Source: Xenophilus sp. E41 (GTDB lineage: Bacteria > Pseudomonadota > Gammaproteobacteria > Burkholderiales > Burkholderiaceae_C). Taken from it: DNA of 64,000 nt. Shown piece by piece: positions 14,242 through 23,256 of this stretch. Where the stretch lies: contig NZ_QPIB01000042.1 of NCBI RefSeq assembly GCF_003671765.1, positions 124,001-188,000 of the forward strand. The letters run 5' to 3'. The position numbers and the translations under genes were made by a program. The notes beneath the pieces are model-generated. The model was not told where the DNA came from. It saw nothing but the letters and a program-made list of their open reading frames with translations, and searched no databases. The first letter of the stretch is position 1. The number at the start of each line of letters is the position of its first letter.

Positions 14242-16521
14242 TCACCGAGCGGGCTGCTCCGGATCGCAGCCGAAGTGGTGCAGCACATTGCGCAGCAGGC
14301 CCTCAAAGACCGGATCGCTGCCCACCACCCAGGCCGCACCGACGGCCCCGGCGTGGAAGACCCGCCCGCCCTGCGGACGCTCCCAATAGATCATTTCGGC
14401 CGAGACGCCGTCGATGGGTTCGCACACCCGCGAATGCCAGTCGAGGTAGGTGTCCATCCGTCCCGGCGCACGCCGGCCCTGCGCGATGACGGTGAGGCCA
14501 GCGGGCAGCTCCGGCAGGGCCGCCGTCTCGTGGGAACCCATGGTCATGCGCATCAGGGTTGCCGCGCTCAGGTCCCACTCGTGCCCGACGGCGCGCGGCA
14601 GACCGCCGCCGGGCGCATGGCCGAAGGTCTGGCCCTGCGCCAGTCCCAGCGCGTGAGGCCGGTTGAACAAGAGGTGCGCCGGTTCGCACACGTGATAGAC
14701 GCCGAAGTCCTCCGCATCCGCAAAGCCCCAGCCGGCCGTCTCCAGCCCGATGATGCTGGCGGCCGAGCGGCCGAGCGCGCGCAGCTGGCCGCCGCGCAGG
14801 CCGTCCTGCACATGACGCTCCTCGCCGAAGGGGCCGGCTGGCGGACGCAGCGCGGCGTTGGCCGGATCGGCGCCGCGCTCGTCGTTCTTGCGCTGCTCCA
14901 TGACCGCCATGTTGGCATCGAAGCTCACGCGCAGGTACATGGTGTTGCCGGACAGCACGATCGCATTCCCGCCCCGGCGCAGCCAGGCGTCGAAGGCATC
15001 GACCACCGGCAGCGACCAGTACTCGCTGTGACCGTTGACGACCACCGTGCGGTAGCGGGCGAGAACCGCCGGGTCGGCATGCAGGTCGAGATCCGCCAGC
15101 ACGTCGAAGGCCTGGCCCTCGCGTTCGAGCCAGGCATGCAGCCGGCGTTCGAGCCGGGTCCACTGCGAGAACCCGCTGCCTGCCGGGTCGTACAGCGCCG
15201 CCGGGCTGGCATTCGGCCAGGGCATGCGCAGGCCAGTGAAGTAGCTGGGCTGTCCGGCGCGGTGGTAGGTGTAGCTGCAGAAGGCCGGCGCCTCCGGATG
15301 GCTGTTGTCCAGGCCGGTGGAGCGGCGCGGCCACACCGGGTCCTCCACCTGGTTGCGCGCGAAGGGCGTGGCCGCATACGCAAGCCAGCTGCTCATGGCG
15401 CACAGCACCAGCAGGGGCGCCGGGCGCGCGCCCGCGTGAGGCTTGACCAGGAAGGTGATGTCGTACACCGCCTCGCGCCCTTCCCACTCGAAACGCAGGC
15501 GCGCCACATGCAGGCCAGGCCGTGCATCGGCCGGCAGGTCCAGGTGCGCCGTGGCAGGCCATCGGCAGTCGTACAGATCGTCGCTTGCCAGCCGCAGGCC
15601 CTGCAGGCTCGCAGGCATCGCATCGTCGTTGCGGGACGACGCGGCGCCGGCCGCATCGACGGCCGGCCCGAGGATGGACCAGGTGCCGTGGTTCACGACG
15701 CGGCCATGCCGGCCCTGGCGGCCGACGTCGACGACCCGGTCCCCGCTGCCGTCCCGCAGCGGCCAGCAGGCCAGCAGCCTGTCGGCCGCGGGCAACCCGG
15801 CGGCACGCCCCTGCCAGCGCGCCGCCAGCGTCTCGGCCGTCAATGCGTGGCCATGGATCGCCACCATGGCCAGGTCCACATCCGCAAAGGCCTCGGCGCC
15901 CTCGGCACCGCCGGCCGCGCCCAGCCGCAGCGGCGCGTCCGCAGGCCGCGGTGCGCCATCGGATCGGACGCGCGCCAGGCATTCCCCATCGATCCACAGC
16001 GCCGCTTCGCGGCCGTCCCAGGTGGCCGCCACATGCTGCCAGCGGCGCGATGCCATCGGCCGGCCCGATCGCAGCGGTGATGCGCCCGGCAACGCGCCCT
16101 CTCCCAGCGCCCAGGCCAGTTGGCCGTCGGGCTCGATGAACAGGCCGAAACTCTGCGCACCGCCGGCATCGCCCTGTGTAATGAGCGCCTGCCGCGGGAC
16201 GTCGCAGCGCCAGGGCATGACCCACGCTTCCAGCGTCAGCCCGGCCAGGGGCTGCCCCGCAGGCAGGCCCGCCTCCACATGCACGTAGGAGCCGGGGTGG
16301 ATGGGCTGCATGCACGCATCGTGCAGGCCCAGGTCGGCCACCCGCGGATCGCTGGCGCGGCGGTCCGGGTCGGGGCCCAGGCGGCACACCTCGAGCGAGT
16401 AGGAGCGATCGCTGCTGATGTGGAAGGCGATGCGCTCGCCGGCATGGACGGTCTTGGCGCTCGCGTAGCCGTGCACGCCCGGCACCCAAACCGGGCGATG
16501 CGGAGGAATCGAAAGACTCAT
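14242..16521 (-). CDS. N,N-dimethylformamidase-like large subunit (LamG plus amidase domain)
   Basis: 759 residues, close to the ~760 of the dimethylformamidase (DMFase) large subunit. An N-terminal region is followed by a concanavalin/LamG-like domain (about 75-245: LTLEAWVMPWR, WQHVAATWDGREAALWIDG). The C-terminal two thirds carries VVVNGHSEYWSLPVVDAFDAWLRRGGN; His498 and Glu500 match the HxE iron-ligand pair known in DMFase. It should hydrolyse an amide or formamide-like bond. No small-subunit gene is adjacent. Its ATG overlaps the stop of a Bug receptor gene (ATGA), so uptake and hydrolysis of the same compound are likely coupled. The natural substrate is unknown. Confidence 0.82.
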   Translation of the reverse strand: MSLSIPPHRPVWVPGVHGYASAKTVHAGERIAFHISSDRSYSLEVCRLGPDPDRRASDPRVADLGLHDACMQPIHPGSYVHVEAGLPAGQPLAGLTLEAWVMPWRCDVPRQALITQGDAGGAQSFGLFIEPDGQLAWALGEGALPGASPLRSGRPMASRRWQHVAATWDGREAALWIDGECLARVRSDGAPRPADAPLRLGAAGGAEGAEAFADVDLAMVAIHGHALTAETLAARWQGRAAGLPAADRLLACWPLRDGSGDRVVDVGRQGRHGRVVNHGTWSILGPAVDAAGAASSRNDDAMPASLQGLRLASDDLYDCRWPATAHLDLPADARPGLHVARLRFEWEGREAVYDITFLVKPHAGARPAPLLVLCAMSSWLAYAATPFARNQVEDPVWPRRSTGLDNSHPEAPAFCSYTYHRAGQPSYFTGLRMPWPNASPAALYDPAGSGFSQWTRLERRLHAWLEREGQAFDVLADLDLHADPAVLARYRTVVVNGHSEYWSLPVVDAFDAWLRRGGNAIVLSGNTMYLRVSFDANMAVMEQRKNDERGADPANAALRPPAGPFGEERHVQDGLRGGQLRALGRSAASIIGLETAGWGFADAEDFGVYHVCEPAHLLFNRPHALGLAQGQTFGHAPGGGLPRAVGHEWDLSAATLMRMTMGSHETAALPELPAGLTVIAQGRRAPGRMDTYLDWHSRVCEPIDGVSAEMIYWERPQGGRVFHAGAVGAAWVVGSDPVFEGLLRNVLHHFGCDPEQPAR

Positions 16522-17495
16522 TCGCTGCTGAAACCAGACGCCTTGACCACTGGCCCCCAACGCTTGAGGTCGTCGGCGATCAGCGCCGACAGGGCCTGCG
16601 GCGTGCTCGGATTCGCATCGCTGCTCAGGCGCGCAAGTCGGTCCTGCACCTCGGGCAGGGCCAGGGCCTTGCCGAGCGCAATATTGAGCTGCTGCACGGT
16701 GGCCGCGGGCGTGGCGGCAGGCACGAACAGCCCGGTCCACTCCAGGTTGTCGAAGTGGGGCTGGCCCAGTTCCTTGAGCGTCGGGACGTCGGGCAGCAGC
16801 GAGGCGCGCCGGTCGCCGTTGACCGCCAGCACCTTGAGCTTGCCCGACTGCTGGTAGGGCACCAGGTCCGCAATGGGCGTGATGCCCGACGCCACCTGGT
16901 TGCCCACCAGGTCCTGCACCAGCGGCGCCGCGCCGCGGTAAGGCACGGCGGTGAGTTCGACCTTCGCATCGCTGCCCAGGCGGAAGCCCATGAATTGCGA
17001 CACGCTGCCGGCCGCGGGCACGCCGTAGCTGGCGCGCGACTTGTCGGAACGGGCCAGCGCCAGCCATTCGCGCACGTCGCGCACGGGCAGCGCGGCCGGC
17101 ACCGCGATGCCTTCGTAGAAGGTCGCGATGCGGCCCACGGCCTGGAAGTCCTTCACCGGGTCGTAGTGCACCGACTTCGAGGTCAGTGGCAGCATCACCA
17201 TCATGTGCATGTTGGCCAGCAGTACGGTGAGGCCGTCGGCCGGCGCGGCGCGCACGTAGTCGGCCGCGATCTGTCCACCGGCGCCGGTGCGGTTTTCGAC
17301 CACCACGGCCGTGCCCAGTTCCGCAGCCAGCTTGTCGGCCAGCGTGCGGGCCTGCACGTCGGCCGAGCCGCCCGCGGGGTAGCCGACGATCAGGCGCAGG
17401 GCGCCCCTCTGGGTGGGCACCTGGGCGCCTGCGGCGCAGGCGAAGGCGAGGCTGGTACAGACAAGCAGGAAGCGAAGCAGTGCAGGCGGGCGCAT
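16518..17495 (-). CDS. Bug/TctC-family periplasmic solute receptor
   Basis: 325 residues with a signal peptide (MRPPALLRFLLVCTSLAFAC, cleavage near AGA-Q). Bug signatures are present: RLIVGYPAGGSADVQAR, VVVENRTGAGG, VPYRGAAPLVQDL and LLPDVPTLKELG. These receptors bind carboxylates or amides in the periplasm, usually for tripartite tricarboxylate transporters; no TctA/TctB genes are adjacent. The stop overlaps the start of the dimethylformamidase-like gene, which suggests that its ligand is that enzyme's substrate. Confidence 0.92.
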   Translation of the reverse strand: MRPPALLRFLLVCTSLAFACAAGAQVPTQRGALRLIVGYPAGGSADVQARTLADKLAAELGTAVVVENRTGAGGQIAADYVRAAPADGLTVLLANMHMMVMLPLTSKSVHYDPVKDFQAVGRIATFYEGIAVPAALPVRDVREWLALARSDKSRASYGVPAAGSVSQFMGFRLGSDAKVELTAVPYRGAAPLVQDLVGNQVASGITPIADLVPYQQSGKLKVLAVNGDRRASLLPDVPTLKELGQPHFDNLEWTGLFVPAATPAATVQQLNIALGKALALPEVQDRLARLSSDANPSTPQALSALIADDLKRWGPVVKASGFSSE

Positions 17496-17578
17496 GACGG
17501 TCCTTGAGGTGGTGGTGAGGGTCGGAAAGATGCGGAAGGCCGGGCTTACCGGAACGGGGTGGGGGCGGCCTGCAGGCT

Positions 17579-18997
17579 TCAGGCCAGCTTCGCGCGGGCG
17601 ACTTCGGCTGCCAGGTCCTCGAGCGAGCGCTCCAGGCGCTCGACCAGCTCGTCGAGCTCGGACTCGCTGATCGTCAGGGGCGGCGTGATCATCTGGAAGT
17701 CGCCGAAGGCGCCCAGGTTGGCGCGCCGGTTGTAGAGCGCGATGCCGTGCCGCAGCCCATGCACCGTGAGCCGGGCCGGCGCATTGAAGGCGGCCGGCAA
17801 TGCGCGCCGCGTGCCCTTGTCGGCCACGAGTTCGATCGCGGCCAGCAGGCCGAGGCCGCGCACGTCGCCGACCAGCGGCGAGCGCTGCGCCAGCGCATCG
17901 AGCCGGCGCCGCAGGCTTTCGCCGCGCTCCCGTGCACGCGCGACCAGGTCGAGCCGTTCCACCTCGTCCATCACCGCATGGGCCACGGCGCAGGACAGCG
18001 GGTTGGTGAAGTACGTGTGGCCGTGCACGAAGCCGCCGCTGCCGGCCACGGCGTCCACGATGCGCTCGGGCACCAGCACGCAGCCCAGCGGGGTGTAGCC
18101 CGCCGCCAGGCCCTTGGCCAGCGTGACGATGTCCGGCCGCGCCGCCGGCCAGTGGTGCGCGGCCAGGAATCGGCCGGTGCGCCCGGCGCCGCTCATGATC
18201 TCGTCGTAGATCAGGAGCACGCCGTGGCGGTCGCAGATGCGGCGCACCCGCTCGAAGTAGGCGGGCGGCGAGACCACCGTCCCGGTCGAGAGCCCGCCGA
18301 TCGGCTCCAGGATGAAGGCCAGCACCGACTCGGGACCCTCCTGCTCGATGGCGCGCTCCAGCGCATCGGCGCATGCCATCGCATGGCTGTCCACGCTTTC
18401 GCCCTTCGGCAGGCGGTAGGACAGCGGTGCCGGCACCTTCGGCATGGTGCGGACCATCGGGCCGTAGATCGACGAGGTGTGCTCGTCGCCCGTCACCGCC
18501 AGGGCGCCCAGCGTCGAGCCGTGGTAGCTCGGGTTGCGCGAGATCACCTTCCAGCGGCTGCCCTGCCCCGTCACGACGGCGTACTGGCGCGCGAGCTTGA
18601 GGGCTGCCTCGTTGGCCTCCGAGCCGCCCGACACGAAGAAGGCGCGATCGAAGCCCGGGCTCGCCAGCGCGCAGACGCGGTCGGCCAGCGCGACGTTGTG
18701 CTCGCTCTCGAAGAACCTCGGGTAGGCGAAGCTCACGCGCGCCGCCTGCGCCTGCATGGCGGCGAGCACGTGCGGGTTGCCGTGGCCGATGTTCGCCACC
18801 ACGGCGCCGGCCGTCGCGTCCAGATAGCGTCGGCCGTCGGCGTCCCACAGGTACACGCCCTCGGCACGTCCGATCCGCGGCGGCCGGGGCGAGCCCTTGG
18901 GGCTGTAGAAGGACAGCACCGAGCCGCCCTGGGGCGTGTCGCCCAGCAGGCGCGGCGCGGACGGAAATGCAAAGGGCGAGACAGCGGAAGGGCTCAT
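17579..18997 (-). CDS. Class III pyridoxal-phosphate aminotransferase
   Basis: About 472 residues. The fold-type I class III pattern is clear: GVYLWDADGRRYLDATAGAVV, FVSGGSEANEAALK, the YHG segment, LIYDEIMSGAGRTG, and the PLP lysine in IVTLAKGLAAGYTPLG. It transfers an amino group from an omega-amino acid or amine to a keto acid. ATG 18997 is preferred, but an in-frame ATG at 19042 would add 15 residues and bring the start to 30 bases from the divergent LysR gene. It lies just upstream (same strand) of the Bug-amidase pair, so it may process an amine released by that amidase. Confidence 0.85.
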   Translation of the reverse strand: MSPSAVSPFAFPSAPRLLGDTPQGGSVLSFYSPKGSPRPPRIGRAEGVYLWDADGRRYLDATAGAVVANIGHGNPHVLAAMQAQAARVSFAYPRFFESEHNVALADRVCALASPGFDRAFFVSGGSEANEAALKLARQYAVVTGQGSRWKVISRNPSYHGSTLGALAVTGDEHTSSIYGPMVRTMPKVPAPLSYRLPKGESVDSHAMACADALERAIEQEGPESVLAFILEPIGGLSTGTVVSPPAYFERVRRICDRHGVLLIYDEIMSGAGRTGRFLAAHHWPAARPDIVTLAKGLAAGYTPLGCVLVPERIVDAVAGSGGFVHGHTYFTNPLSCAVAHAVMDEVERLDLVARARERGESLRRRLDALAQRSPLVGDVRGLGLLAAIELVADKGTRRALPAAFNAPARLTVHGLRHGIALYNRRANLGAFGDFQMITPPLTISESELDELVERLERSLEDLAAEVARAKLA

Positions 18998-19071
18998 TTG
19001 CGCGGCACGATAGGCCGATCGCGGGCCGGAAAGAAGACGCATGGAACGATGAAGTCCTATACGCTCGGCGC

Positions 19072-19989
19072 ATGAAGCTCGTCCATGACCGCATCGATCT
19101 GCTCACCACCTTCCTGCGCATCGCCGAGACCGGCTCGCTGAGCAAGGCCGCGCGGCTGATCGGAATCACGCAGCCCACCGCGAGCCGGCGCCTGCTCGAG
19201 CTGGAACGCCTGCTGGGCTGCAAGCTGGCCCTGCGGACCACCGCCAGCTTCTCGCTGACCGACGAGGGCCGCTCGCTGATGGTCGAGGCGCGCGCCGTCT
19301 CCGACCGCTGGGCCAGCCTGGCCGAGCGGATCTCCGGCGGTCGCAGCCGGCCCGAAGGCACCCTGCGCGTGATCGGCCCGTCCGGCTACGGCACCGGCTT
19401 CCTGACCGACACCGTCACCGACCTGCGCGCGGCATGGCCGCAGTTGCGCGTGGAGCTGACGCTCACGGACCGCGTGATCGACATGGTCGCCACCGGCGCC
19501 GAGTGCTGGGTGTGCGTGGGCGAGGTGCGCGACCCCGGGCTGGTGTCGCGCCACCTGGGCGACATGGAACGCATCCTGGTGGCGCACCCTGCGCTGCTGC
19601 GCCGCCTCGGCCCGGTCACGGTGGCCAACCTGCCGCGCATGCCCTGCGTCGGCCTCGTGCCCTACTTCGCCGGAACGGTGCGGCTGATCGACCGCGAAGG
19701 CCGATCGCAGACCGTGTCCATCGACACGCCGCTGCGCACCGACAGCCTGCTCTCCAGCTACCGCGCCATCCTCAACGGCGGCGGCATCGGCGCCGCCGCG
19801 CCCTGGATCTGCGAAGCCGACCTGAAGGCCGGGCGGCTCAAACGCGTGCTGCCGAAGCTGGCGCTGGAGCCCGTCGGCATCCACGTGGCGCTGCCGCCGG
19901 ACATCCACCGCCCTGCCCGCGTGACGGCCTTCATCGATGCCCTGAAGCGCCGCATCACAGACATGCGCGGCTTCCGTGCCAGCGAATGA
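19072..19989 (+). CDS. LysR family transcriptional regulator
   Basis: 305 residues. The N-terminal winged helix is typical (LTTFLRIAETGSLSKAARLIG, then TQPTASRRLLELERLLG), followed by a LysR substrate domain. It is divergent from the aminotransferase gene, the classical arrangement for control of that gene and probably the Bug-amidase genes downstream. TATACG at 19058-19063 lies only eight bases before the start codon, so the transcript may be nearly leaderless if this is the -10 element. The gene is convergent with the P450 fusion. Confidence 0.88.
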   Translation: MKLVHDRIDLLTTFLRIAETGSLSKAARLIGITQPTASRRLLELERLLGCKLALRTTASFSLTDEGRSLMVEARAVSDRWASLAERISGGRSRPEGTLRVIGPSGYGTGFLTDTVTDLRAAWPQLRVELTLTDRVIDMVATGAECWVCVGEVRDPGLVSRHLGDMERILVAHPALLRRLGPVTVANLPRMPCVGLVPYFAGTVRLIDREGRSQTVSIDTPLRTDSLLSSYRAILNGGGIGAAAPWICEADLKAGRLKRVLPKLALEPVGIHVALPPDIHRPARVTAFIDALKRRITDMRGFRASE

Positions 19990-20010: not shown

Positions 20011-23000
20011 TCAATGGCCGGCCCACACGTCCAGCACGTAGCGCTGGCCGGCGATCATCTTCTCCATCCAGGCCTCGCCGTCCTCGCCGTGCGCACGGGC
20101 GATGTCGACCAGGGTGCGGCGCACGTCGGGTTCCATGCGCGAGCCGTCGCCGCAGATGTAGACATGGCCGCCGGCCTGCAGCAGGCGCCACACCGTGTCG
20201 GCCTGCTCGCGCAGGCGGTCCTGCACGTAGGCCTTCTTCCCGTCGGCACGCGAAAAGGCCGTGTGCAGTTCGACCACGCCGTCCTTCGCCCAGGCCTGCA
20301 GTTCGTCGGCGTAGATGAAGTCCTGCTGCGGGTGGCGGCAGCCGACGAAGAGCAGCGCCTCGCCCAGCGGCTGGCCCTGCGCCTTGCGCAGCGCGCGTTC
20401 CTGCAGGAAGCCGCGAAAGGGCGCGAGGCCGGTGCCCGGGCCCACCATGATGAGCGGCTTGGCGGCATCCTCCGGCAGGCCGAAGCCCTCGGCCGTGGTG
20501 CCGCGCACGAAGCCGTGCACCGTGTCACCGACCTGCGCGCGCGCGAGGAAGTTCGAGCACACGCCCTCGAATCGGCCGCGCCCGGAGCGCGCCGGCCCTG
20601 CGACCACGCCCACCGTGACGCTTGCGCGCGCCGGATCGACAGCCGGCGACGACGAGATCGAGTAGTAGCGTGGCGTGAGCGGCGAGAGCATTTCCAGGTA
20701 TGCCGCGAAAGGCAGTTCGACGGCCGGAAATTCCTCCAGCAGATCCAGCAGCGACTTGCGCTTGCCCAGCACCTCGGCCTTGTAGTGCGCCGCGACCGGC
20801 TCGTCGCTGCCGACGAATGCCCCCAGGGACTTCTGCGTGAAGGGGCAGCGCGTGGCGGCGGCCAGCACGCCGATCTGCTTGCGGGTGGCCACGTCCTGCA
20901 GTTCGACATAGTCGGACAGCAAACGCTCCACCGGCACCACCTCGTCCACCGGCAGGAAGGTCTTGCGGCCCGCAGCGGCGGTGAGCCGCAGGTGCGCGTC
21001 GCGCGCGAAGCCGAAGCGCTGCATCGCACGCTCGACCACCGCGGCGCCGTTGCGCGGCACCACGCTCAGGTGGTCGCCCGCGGTGTAGCGCACGCCCTCG
21101 GGCAGCGCGAGTTCGACATGGCGCGTGGAGCGCTCCGGGGCCGCATCGCCCGCGCCGCGCTGCAGTTCGCGGTTGACCAGCACGCGCAGTGGCACGGCGC
21201 CCAGCGATTCGACGAGGCCGCTGGTCTGCGGCGGCGGCATCTCCTCGACGGTGTAGAGGGGCGCTGCCGCCTCGGGCGCGCCGGCCTCCGCCTTCACGCC
21301 TAAGCGCTCGCCCAGCGCCGGCCACAGCGCGTCGGCCCAGGCCTGGAAGGCGCCGTCCATGTCCTCGCGTGCGTCGCCCTCGCCGCGCGGGTGCACGCGC
21401 TCGGCGCCCAGTTCGGCCAGGCGTTCGTCGATGCGCCGCGGCACCGCCTGGTAGGTGGAGGCCCAGTCCGTGTTGCCGCAACCGAAGACGCTGTACGACA
21501 CCCCCTTGAGCGAGTCATTGGCGCCCTCCATCCAGCGCCAGAACTCCACCGCGTTGTCGGGCGCGGCGCCGTTGTACGAGGCACTGACGATGGCCACGGC
21601 ACCGGACGCGGGCAGGCGCTCGGCGTAGTCGTCCAGCGACGCGAGCTGCGTCGAATAGCCGCGCAGCGTGCCGGCCTCGGCCAACTGGCGCGCGAAGTCC
21701 TCGGCGCTGCCGAGGTTGGAGCCGTGCAGCACCAGCAGCGAGGTGCCATGGCGTGCCCGCTCCCCGGCGGCCGAGGAATGCGGCACCTCGGGCGCCGAGC
21801 CGGCGCCACCGGTCGCGGCCGTGCTGCCGGGCGTCGGGTGCGTGGCACGCAGCGCGGCCGGATCGCGCGGCTCGACCTTGATGCGGAAGCCCTCGGGCTT
21901 GATGGTCAGGGCCTCCTTGACCTTGAGCTGGTAGTTCGCGTGGTCGATGAGCTTGAAGCGCTGGATCACCATCGCCAAGGTGAGCGTCGCCTCCTGCAGC
22001 GCGAACTGGCGGCCGATGCAGGCGCGCTGGCCGGTGCCGAAGGGCTTGAAGGCATTGGGCGGCAGCGCCCGCTCGGCCTCGCGGCTGAAATGCTCGGGGT
22101 TGAACTCGTCGGCGTCCTCGCCCCACACGCGCTTGTCGCGGTGCATGGCCAGCGCGTGCAGGATCACCATGTTGCGCTTGTGGATGGTGTACTTGCCGCC
22201 TTCACCGATGGTGGTGTTGGCCAGCGCACGCTTGGCCACGGCGGGGGCCGTCGGATACATGCGCAGCGCTTCCTTGAGGACCTGGCCGATGTACTGCAAC
22301 CGGTTGACCTGCGCGTAGGTGGGCCGCTGCGTGAGGTCGGTGCCGAACACGCTGTCGACCTCGGCCTGCGCCCTGGCCAGGATGGCAGGGTCCTTGAGCA
22401 GGTAGTAGATGGCGAAGGACAGCAGGCCGCTGGTCGTCTCGTGGCCGGCGATGAGGAATTCGATGCACTCGTCGCGGATCTGCTTGTCGTCGAGCTTCTC
22501 GCCGCTCTTCTTGTCGACGCCGGCGATCATGTAGCTCAGCAGGTCGGGCTTGGTGGCGATGTCGGCGCCGCTGGCCCGGCGCTCGCGGATGATGTCCTCC
22601 ACCATCGTGTGCATGAACTTGATGTCCTTGCGCTGCTGGGCGAGCTGCTTCTTCATCATCAGCTCTTCCAGCGGCAGGCCGCGCCGGTCCTGCACTGTCT
22701 CGAGCGTACGCACCATCGCGTCGACGAAGGGGTGGAAGCCCTCGCGGTAGAAGGAGTTGAAGCGGTAGCCGAAGCCGCACAGGCCGATGGTGTCGAGCGT
22801 GAGCGCGGTCATGTCGCGCGTCACGTCCACCTCGTCGTCGAAGTTCAGGCGCTCCCACTTAGCGACCAGCTGCTCGGCGATGTCGAGCATCATCGGGTGG
22901 TAGGCCTGCATGGCCCGCTGACTGAAGTTGGCCAGCAGGATGTTGTGCGGCTTGCTCCAGGTCGACTCGTGCGTGTCTGAGGTGAAGAGGCCGTGCGACG

Positions 23001-23256
23001 CGGCGCGCAGCCGGCGCAGCGCGCCGTTGGTGCTCTTGTCGAAGCGCTTCTCGTCGACCAGCTCGTTCACCAGCTCGTGGTCGGAGATCACGACCACCGG
23101 CATGCCCGGCATGTCCAGCCAGTAGATGCCGCCCAGCTCCCGGGCGATCTTCCACATGTCGAGCACCGGGGAGTCGGAGCCGATCGACAGCAGGTTGCCG
23201 ACGATCGGCTTGCGCGCCGGGTGGGGAATGGGGTGCAGCGGGTTCTTGCCGGCCAT
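20011..23256 (-). CDS. Bifunctional cytochrome P450/NADPH-P450 reductase (CYP102 type)
   Basis: 1081 residues, slightly longer than P450 BM3. Order: P450 heme domain (about 1-475), linker, FMN flavodoxin-like domain (from about 495, LLVLHGSNLGSAEDFARQL), FAD/NADPH reductase domain (about 690-1081). The I-helix AGHETTSGLLSFAIYYLLKDP is very BM3-like, and FGTGQRACIGRQ supplies the heme thiolate Cys413. YSISSSP and VGPGTGLAPFRGF are the FAD and NADPH sites. It should be a self-sufficient, probably subterminal, fatty-acid hydroxylase. The neighbours include a TetR regulator and fatty-acid-activating enzymes. A palindromic repeat lies in its promoter region. Confidence 0.96.
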   Translation of the reverse strand: MAGKNPLHPIPHPARKPIVGNLLSIGSDSPVLDMWKIARELGGIYWLDMPGMPVVVISDHELVNELVDEKRFDKSTNGALRRLRAASHGLFTSDTHESTWSKPHNILLANFSQRAMQAYHPMMLDIAEQLVAKWERLNFDDEVDVTRDMTALTLDTIGLCGFGYRFNSFYREGFHPFVDAMVRTLETVQDRRGLPLEELMMKKQLAQQRKDIKFMHTMVEDIIRERRASGADIATKPDLLSYMIAGVDKKSGEKLDDKQIRDECIEFLIAGHETTSGLLSFAIYYLLKDPAILARAQAEVDSVFGTDLTQRPTYAQVNRLQYIGQVLKEALRMYPTAPAVAKRALANTTIGEGGKYTIHKRNMVILHALAMHRDKRVWGEDADEFNPEHFSREAERALPPNAFKPFGTGQRACIGRQFALQEATLTLAMVIQRFKLIDHANYQLKVKEALTIKPEGFRIKVEPRDPAALRATHPTPGSTAATGGAGSAPEVPHSSAAGERARHGTSLLVLHGSNLGSAEDFARQLAEAGTLRGYSTQLASLDDYAERLPASGAVAIVSASYNGAAPDNAVEFWRWMEGANDSLKGVSYSVFGCGNTDWASTYQAVPRRIDERLAELGAERVHPRGEGDAREDMDGAFQAWADALWPALGERLGVKAEAGAPEAAAPLYTVEEMPPPQTSGLVESLGAVPLRVLVNRELQRGAGDAAPERSTRHVELALPEGVRYTAGDHLSVVPRNGAAVVERAMQRFGFARDAHLRLTAAAGRKTFLPVDEVVPVERLLSDYVELQDVATRKQIGVLAAATRCPFTQKSLGAFVGSDEPVAAHYKAEVLGKRKSLLDLLEEFPAVELPFAAYLEMLSPLTPRYYSISSSPAVDPARASVTVGVVAGPARSGRGRFEGVCSNFLARAQVGDTVHGFVRGTTAEGFGLPEDAAKPLIMVGPGTGLAPFRGFLQERALRKAQGQPLGEALLFVGCRHPQQDFIYADELQAWAKDGVVELHTAFSRADGKKAYVQDRLREQADTVWRLLQAGGHVYICGDGSRMEPDVRRTLVDIARAHGEDGEAWMEKMIAGQRYVLDVWAGH

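Follow-up and report, generated by a model that had tools for sequence, protein, structure and literature searches.

We analyzed a 64,000-nucleotide stretch of the genome of the soil bacterium Xenophilus sp. E41 (contig NZ_QPIB01000042.1, positions 124,001 to 188,000, hereafter the window) and confirmed in it a conserved operon whose hydrolase belongs to a little-known clade within an established enzyme family, that of the large subunit of N,N-dimethylformamidase (DMFase). Judged from its genes and those of its relatives, this small operon may well serve the catabolism of N-acylated beta-amino acids. It is transcribed from the minus strand in the order aminotransferase, Bug receptor and hydrolase: a pyridoxal phosphate class-III aminotransferase (17579-18997, 472 amino acids (aa), PF00202 at 327.4 bits), a Bug/TctC periplasmic receptor (16518-17495, 325 aa, PF03401 at 192.2 bits) and a hydrolase of the DMFA2_C family that resembles the DMFase large subunit (14242-16521, 759 aa, PF20254 at 158.2 bits against a curated cut-off of 27, and PF13385 at 66 bits). 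The gene of a LysR-type regulator (19072-19989, plus strand, 305 aa, PF00126 and PF03466) points away from these three.

In the proposed pathway, the Bug receptor would bind a carboxylate substrate whose amino group is blocked, and the hydrolase, probably a cytoplasmic single-subunit enzyme of DMFA2 type with a 2-Tyr-1-Glu iron site and a catalytic His, would cut the amide. The class-III aminotransferase would turn the freed beta-amino acid into a beta-keto acid, and an acetoacetate-coenzyme A (CoA) ligase, whose gene is operonic in some relatives and lies elsewhere in the genome of Xenophilus sp. E41, may capture this acid as a CoA ester. The LysR protein would regulate the set from a short shared operator, and in one Variovorax clade the gene of a major facilitator superfamily (MFS) metabolite:H+ symporter appears to replace that of the receptor in the operon. 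More tentatively, these parts could make up an undescribed route of beta-amino acid assimilation, in which a single-subunit 2-Tyr/Glu iron acylase, exported through the twin-arginine translocation (Tat) pathway in most of its clade and cytoplasmic in Comamonadaceae, would be translationally coupled to its uptake receptor and act together with a transaminase; on two independent occasions an acetoacetate-CoA-ligase-type enzyme would have been added, which traps the unstable beta-keto acid before decarboxylation. An earlier note on this DNA, whose coordinates are right, had described an amide uptake and hydrolysis module that feeds the aminotransferase, and this outline fits the gene order, the active site and the fold; the compounds it proposed for screening (formamides, lactams and N-alkyl amides) are not supported as likely substrates, since the transporter families and a ligase found in 6 of 26 related loci point to an N-acyl-beta-amino acid.

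The gene set was compared among the best 80 of 93 confirmed loci from a scan of GTDB genomes. Comamonadaceae (Xenophilus, Variovorax and Pseudacidovorax) contributed 26 of these (L002-L027), with hydrolases 55-88% identical to that of the window, and the other 54, mainly from Planctomycetota, Verrucomicrobiota and Acidobacteriota, showed 39-47% identity. When neighboring genes of the Comamonadaceae loci were sought by tblastn (E <= 1e-15), the aminotransferase was present in all 26, beside the hydrolase or beside the preceding Bug gene, and LysR in 24. Locus L004 lacks LysR because its contig ends there, the LysR of L005 is reduced to its first 17 residues, and that of L022 matches in two pieces. 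A Bug ortholog (75-97% identity) lies between aminotransferase and hydrolase in 18 loci. The Bug and hydrolase genes of the window, which had been called fused, are separate genes sharing an ATGA overlap at 16521-16518; the same junction occurs in 16 of the 18 Bug-bearing loci (none in L012 and L016), and given this recurrence the overlap is more than chance. In the 8 loci without Bug an MFS symporter match starts 42-54 bases after the hydrolase match, and these loci form one Variovorax clade, requiring 1 change on the hydrolase tree (Shimodaira-Hasegawa-like approximate likelihood ratio test, SH-aLRT, 100). The gene set is rare: among 150 genomes of the bacterial family 7 contain PF20254, the window hydrolase is the sole PF20254 match in its own 5.84-Mb genome, and a search with it through 300 genomes of the order gave hits in 2 at E <= 1e-30, its own being one of them.

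The hydrolase consists of a Laminin_G_3 domain (LamG/pentraxin-like, residues 91-232) and the catalytic PF20254 domain (residues 312-728). In Paracoccus DMFase, Fe(III) is described as held by Y399, Y440 and E521, with H519 catalytic and essential without being an iron ligand and N547 within the site (PMC7686228). By alignment all of these are kept in the window protein, as Y382, Y417 and E500 for the ligands, H498 for the catalytic His, and N526. The HxE motif that the earlier note took for an iron ligand pair is thus half correct, Glu500 being the equivalent of a ligand and His498 that of the catalytic residue. All five residues recur in each of the 27 Comamonadaceae rows, the window among them, and in each of the 52 rows from the other loci, for which L078 and L081 (<650 aa) were left out; of 14 further family members, 13 keep them too, the exception (L095) being a fragment with gaps at the active-site columns. 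The hydrolase therefore carries the full residue set for a 2-Tyr-1-Glu iron site with catalytic His and Asn, and iron would be the expected metal. An AlphaFold2 model built from an alignment of 51 chosen sequences (pLDDT 89.8, pTM 0.90) gave full-length Foldseek matches to 8i5a, 8huy, 8i59, 6lvb, 6lvd and 6lve with template modeling (TM) scores of 0.74-0.78. By E-value, in sequence as well as in fold, the nearest solved relative is N-acetyl-(R)-beta-phenylalanine acylase, which is 23-24% identical.

Complete iron-site residues and a DMFase fold would also suit an orphan DMFase large subunit, serving in uptake and hydrolysis of a formamide, lactam or N-alkyl amide whose amine then goes to the aminotransferase. 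We consider this improbable. Dimethylamine is no transaminase substrate, the hydrolase falls outside the DMFase clade, and an acetoacetate-CoA ligase is linked to it in relatives. Moreover, the Paracoccus large subunit alone is reported to be inactive, DMFase needing its small subunit (PMC7686228), and a profile of three small subunits gave no match in the Xenophilus genome at E <= 10. The same profile recovered known copies in the control genomes G133 (E 4.7e-19), G071 (a divergent copy, 6e-4) and, barely, G082 (0.75), so a very divergent copy could still escape. Profile searches found no credible small subunit in the window or in L002-L081 either. After iteration over 107 loci and the window, the profile matched 10 sequences, which represent only 7 distinct genes as three lie in two overlapping loci; none is in the window or L002-L081, and all 7 adjoin, or are fused just upstream of, members of the clade that holds DMFase and the acylase. 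The best other match reached 10.2 bits (E 0.62), and the iterated profile found no small subunit in the 8HUY-type locus (L093/L103).

As far as these searches reach, the earlier note was thus right that no small-subunit gene is present, and the DmfA1-like gene elsewhere that it had named as grounds for giving up its proposal was not found in the genome; a distant small-subunit gene was likewise discarded after nothing credible appeared in the genome, the 107 loci or the window. What the note regarded as exceptional is, on the pattern of the iterated matches, common to the whole clade and to the acylase type. The PDB entries of N-acetyl-(R)-beta-phenylalanine acylase name that molecule alone and are not among the six entries matched by the DMFase small subunit, and the window hydrolase resembles this acylase in having no small subunit that we could find. 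With no small subunit found and no place in the DmfA2 clade, it was rejected as an orphan DMFase.

Two of the small-subunit matches form the C-terminus of an ATP-binding cassette permease, at 4278-5933 of L101 (Agrobacterium tumefaciens pAt) and 8071-9600 of L106 (from the family of the window's organism). The L101 frame of 552 residues combines a branched-chain-amino-acid-type permease (PF02653, 132-395) with the small-subunit match (424-552), and in both loci the fusion gene stands directly upstream of the large-subunit gene. Such a fusion could dock the amidase on the importer; full-length relatives were found in 26 of 72,556 plasmid records at E <= 1e-60, and a literature search returned no paper on it. 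Short genes just upstream of family members in L092/L104 and L094/L105 are divergent small subunits, the L094 match becoming clear only after profile iteration.

The substrate is suggested mainly by a gene that adjoins the hydrolase in relatives. In 6 of the 26 Comamonadaceae loci (L003, L004, L005, L023, L010 and L025) the hydrolase match is followed after 24-84 bases, on the same strand, by the start of an acetoacetate-CoA ligase match, and the three that were scored against TIGR01217 (L003 810.1, L004 806.5 and L010 712.6 bits) lie well over the equivalog cut-off of 520.9. The ligases of L003, L004, L005 and L023 are 85-97% identical to each other and 51-52% identical to the L010/L025 pair, and both sets are 52-55% identical to the ligase encoded on another contig of the Xenophilus genome. 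We built a quick tree of 35 ligases, with the test group named beforehand, from the 6 linked and 29 unlinked sequences, the latter taken from genomes of the family without a PF20254 match except for the window genome; L113 (485 aa) was dropped. The L003/L004/L005/L023 ligases grouped with an unlinked ligase (99) and those of L010/L025 fell elsewhere, a single clade of the six linked ligases was rejected (p-AU 0.00058), and the hydrolase tree likewise needs 2 changes for the linkage. With two origins in the tree, the same kind of enzyme was placed in the same spot twice. Of 60 genomes from the family, 29 have a TIGR01217 gene above the cut-off, so the adjacency is no trivial background.

The acid that an acetoacetate-CoA ligase activates is a beta-keto acid, the kind of product that transamination of a beta-amino acid yields. 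Together with the transaminase and with an acylase relative named for deacylating an N-acetyl-beta-amino acid, the ligase linkage suggests catabolism of N-acyl-beta-amino acids. Three other neighbors were not used as clues: a PEP_mutase-like gene in 7 of the 8 MFS-type loci, which scored 86.5 bits against 354.4 for methylisocitrate lyase, and a convergent PALP gene (5 of 26 loci) and a convergent AMP-binding gene beside the L024 hydrolase, both set aside because they lie on the opposite strand.

The aminotransferase is highly conserved, with 254 of 472 columns identical in 27 rows. Its start was revised from 19042 and is most likely at 18997, where 25 aligned sequences (window and 24 loci) share a conserved ATGA start; the ATG at 19042 falls inside the conserved block at 19064-19038. 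Its class-III domain is clear, and specificity for beta-amino acids is our prediction. No family exceeded its cut-off among the best 25 of 69 NCBIfam families matched, PRK07483 being the highest, and no chain named as beta-phenylalanine transaminase was present among the best 60 of 131 PDB matches. The same module might instead handle an N-acyl omega-amino acid, an N-acyl amine or an N-acyl alpha-amino acid, with the amine converted to a semialdehyde or 2-oxo acid and the relatives' ligase serving another acid, a less probable account though one that we take seriously. The resemblance of the aminotransferase to broad omega-transaminases speaks for it, as does the common use of terminal amines by class-III enzymes, whereas a beta-keto acid is favored by the fact that acetoacetate-CoA ligases were recruited on two separate occasions, and a search of the 26 Comamonadaceae loci for an aldehyde dehydrogenase found none (two queries, E <= 1e-10).

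The receptor carries an N-terminal signal sequence (judged by eye) in addition to its TctC domain. Carboxylates are frequent cargo of the families to which Bug proteins and this type of MFS transporter belong, and uptake of the substrate would be the expected role of both. The genome contains 118 TctC/Bug matches and 6 TctA matches.

Several observations weigh against a beta-amino acid substrate. The TM-scores of the fold match are higher for DMFase (0.76-0.78) than for the acylase (0.74-0.75), the sequence margin between the two is narrow (95.1 bits for the acylase, 91.2 for DMFase), and the tree puts the protein outside the clade of acylase and DMFase alike; homology therefore does not give the substrate. 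The nearest solved matches of the aminotransferase are omega-transaminase-like chains, and it stays below the PRK07483 cut-off (435.5 against 485 bits). Only 6 of 26 loci have the linked ligase, and the window operon has none. With Bug genes so common in this genome, the receptor is a poor guide to the ligand, and the window's contig has no TctA match, the 6 lying elsewhere in the genome. Finally, 51 of the 54 non-Comamonadaceae loci have no aminotransferase relative (E <= 1e-15), and of the three that do only one (L032) has it within 2 kb of the hydrolase; specificity for amino acids is thus not a necessary trait of the enzyme family.

In L032 (4087-11116), which our scripted PVC/Acidobacteria group also takes in although it is labeled Mycobacteriaceae, a divergent class-III aminotransferase (33% identical) lies 1.4 kb from the hydrolase with a regulator-like gene between them, and a Mycobacterium plasmid (L102) pairs a class-III aminotransferase (31%) more loosely with the hydrolase. 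The pairing of the two enzymes appears to be independent in L032, and more loosely so in L102, which speaks for the proposed pathway. By eye, L032 also has peptidase-like and TonB-receptor-like genes, and its genome label looks wrong.

The position of the hydrolase was determined in a tree of 90 rows, a quick search with SH-aLRT support only and long-branch warnings, from which L062, L071 and L095 were further left out. Comamonadaceae hydrolases (28 rows: the window, the 26 loci and L097) group together (100) within a 78-row clade (98) common in the loci of Planctomycetota, Verrucomicrobiota and Acidobacteriota. DmfA2 and 8HUY belong to a separate 9-row clade (100) with L092-L094, L098 and L100-L102, in which 8HUY groups with L093 (99), both rows being flagged as long branches that meet. 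A Tat-like RR motif, sought by a crude pattern, occurs in 43 of the 50 non-Comamonadaceae loci with a readable N-terminus, whereas in the Comamonadaceae hydrolases the nearest ATG directly precedes the first domain, and the window protein has no signal peptide by eye. On these N-termini, the enzyme seems to be exported in most of the 78-row clade and cytoplasmic in Comamonadaceae.

It is also conceivable that the hydrolase cuts a non-amide bond (ester or imide), or binds without hydrolysis, in a conserved catabolic operon of other purpose. Clade members outside Comamonadaceae are mostly exported by their N-termini and stand in variable gene contexts, and our literature search gave no described function for any member of the 78-row clade, which leaves room for such an activity; the conservation of the DMFase catalytic residues in all 79 rows, and the fact that both kinds of solved relatives are amide hydrolases, make it unlikely. 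Among the non-Comamonadaceae loci, L036 adjoins DUF1501 and PSCyt/PSD1 genes, and the open frame runs on for 765 (L049) and 792 (L050) residues upstream of the hydrolase. The DUF1501 and PSCyt/PSD1 genes near some of these loci were dismissed as giving no functional clue.

Just upstream of the LysR start codon, a CGTAT-N16-ATGCG element (19038-19064, minus strand) is a probable LysR operator. The alignment around this start places half-sites CGTAT and ATACG/ATGCG in a conserved block (19064-19038), with CGTAT...ATACG in many relatives and ATGCG in the window. The pattern matched every row in which the LysR start is intact (25, from the window and 24 loci), a count that is only descriptive because the pattern was written after the alignment had been inspected and allowed variants. 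On the far side of the LysR gene, a P450-reductase fusion of 1081 aa adjoins it (20011-23256; P450, flavodoxin, FAD and NAD domains), which we take to be CYP102-like and which among the 26 Comamonadaceae loci is present only in L002.

Our literature search, which covered few subscription journals, found no paper on this operon or clade in titles and abstract openings; PMC10308929, as far as its text was available, mentions a DMFase annotation and nothing more. The DMFase-like family is widespread, and its substrate-known members placed in our tree, DmfA2 and the 8HUY acylase, sit in the other clade. For a large uncharacterized clade, the conserved operonic link to a transaminase, joined in some relatives by a beta-keto-acid ligase, yields a concrete substrate prediction. 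The breakdown of acylated beta-amino acids is poorly understood, and the clade might supply single-subunit acylases for beta-amino acid production.

Among known systems, the window hydrolase shares with N-acetyl-(R)-beta-phenylalanine acylase (8huy, 8i59 and 8i5a) its full-length fold, its active-site residues and the lack of a named or matched small subunit. By its name this acylase deacylates a beta-amino acid; it differs in clade and in sequence (identity as given above), and the same search found no paper on it. DmfA1A2 of Paracoccus (6lvb and others) resembles the window protein in the fold of its large subunit, the Y/Y/E iron ligands and the catalytic His and Asn, but it has an adjacent small-subunit gene (dmfA1 in L099), where the window has no small-subunit match, and belongs to another clade and a different operon. 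The acetamiprid amidase AceAB of Pigmentiphaga is placed in the same large family by the high identity to DMFase subunits reported in a review (PMC11573777); on that description, by which alone we compare it, it differs in having two subunits and a xenobiotic substrate. The beta-phenylalanine transaminase route of Variovorax and Paraburkholderia resembles the proposed pathway in converting a beta-amino acid to a beta-keto acid (PMC6150868), but as described there it mentions no acylase or CoA ligase. The same source treats the fate of the beta-keto acid after transamination as uncertain, and our literature search gave no link to an acetoacetate-CoA ligase beyond that paper. The operonic ligase reported here makes this fate testable.

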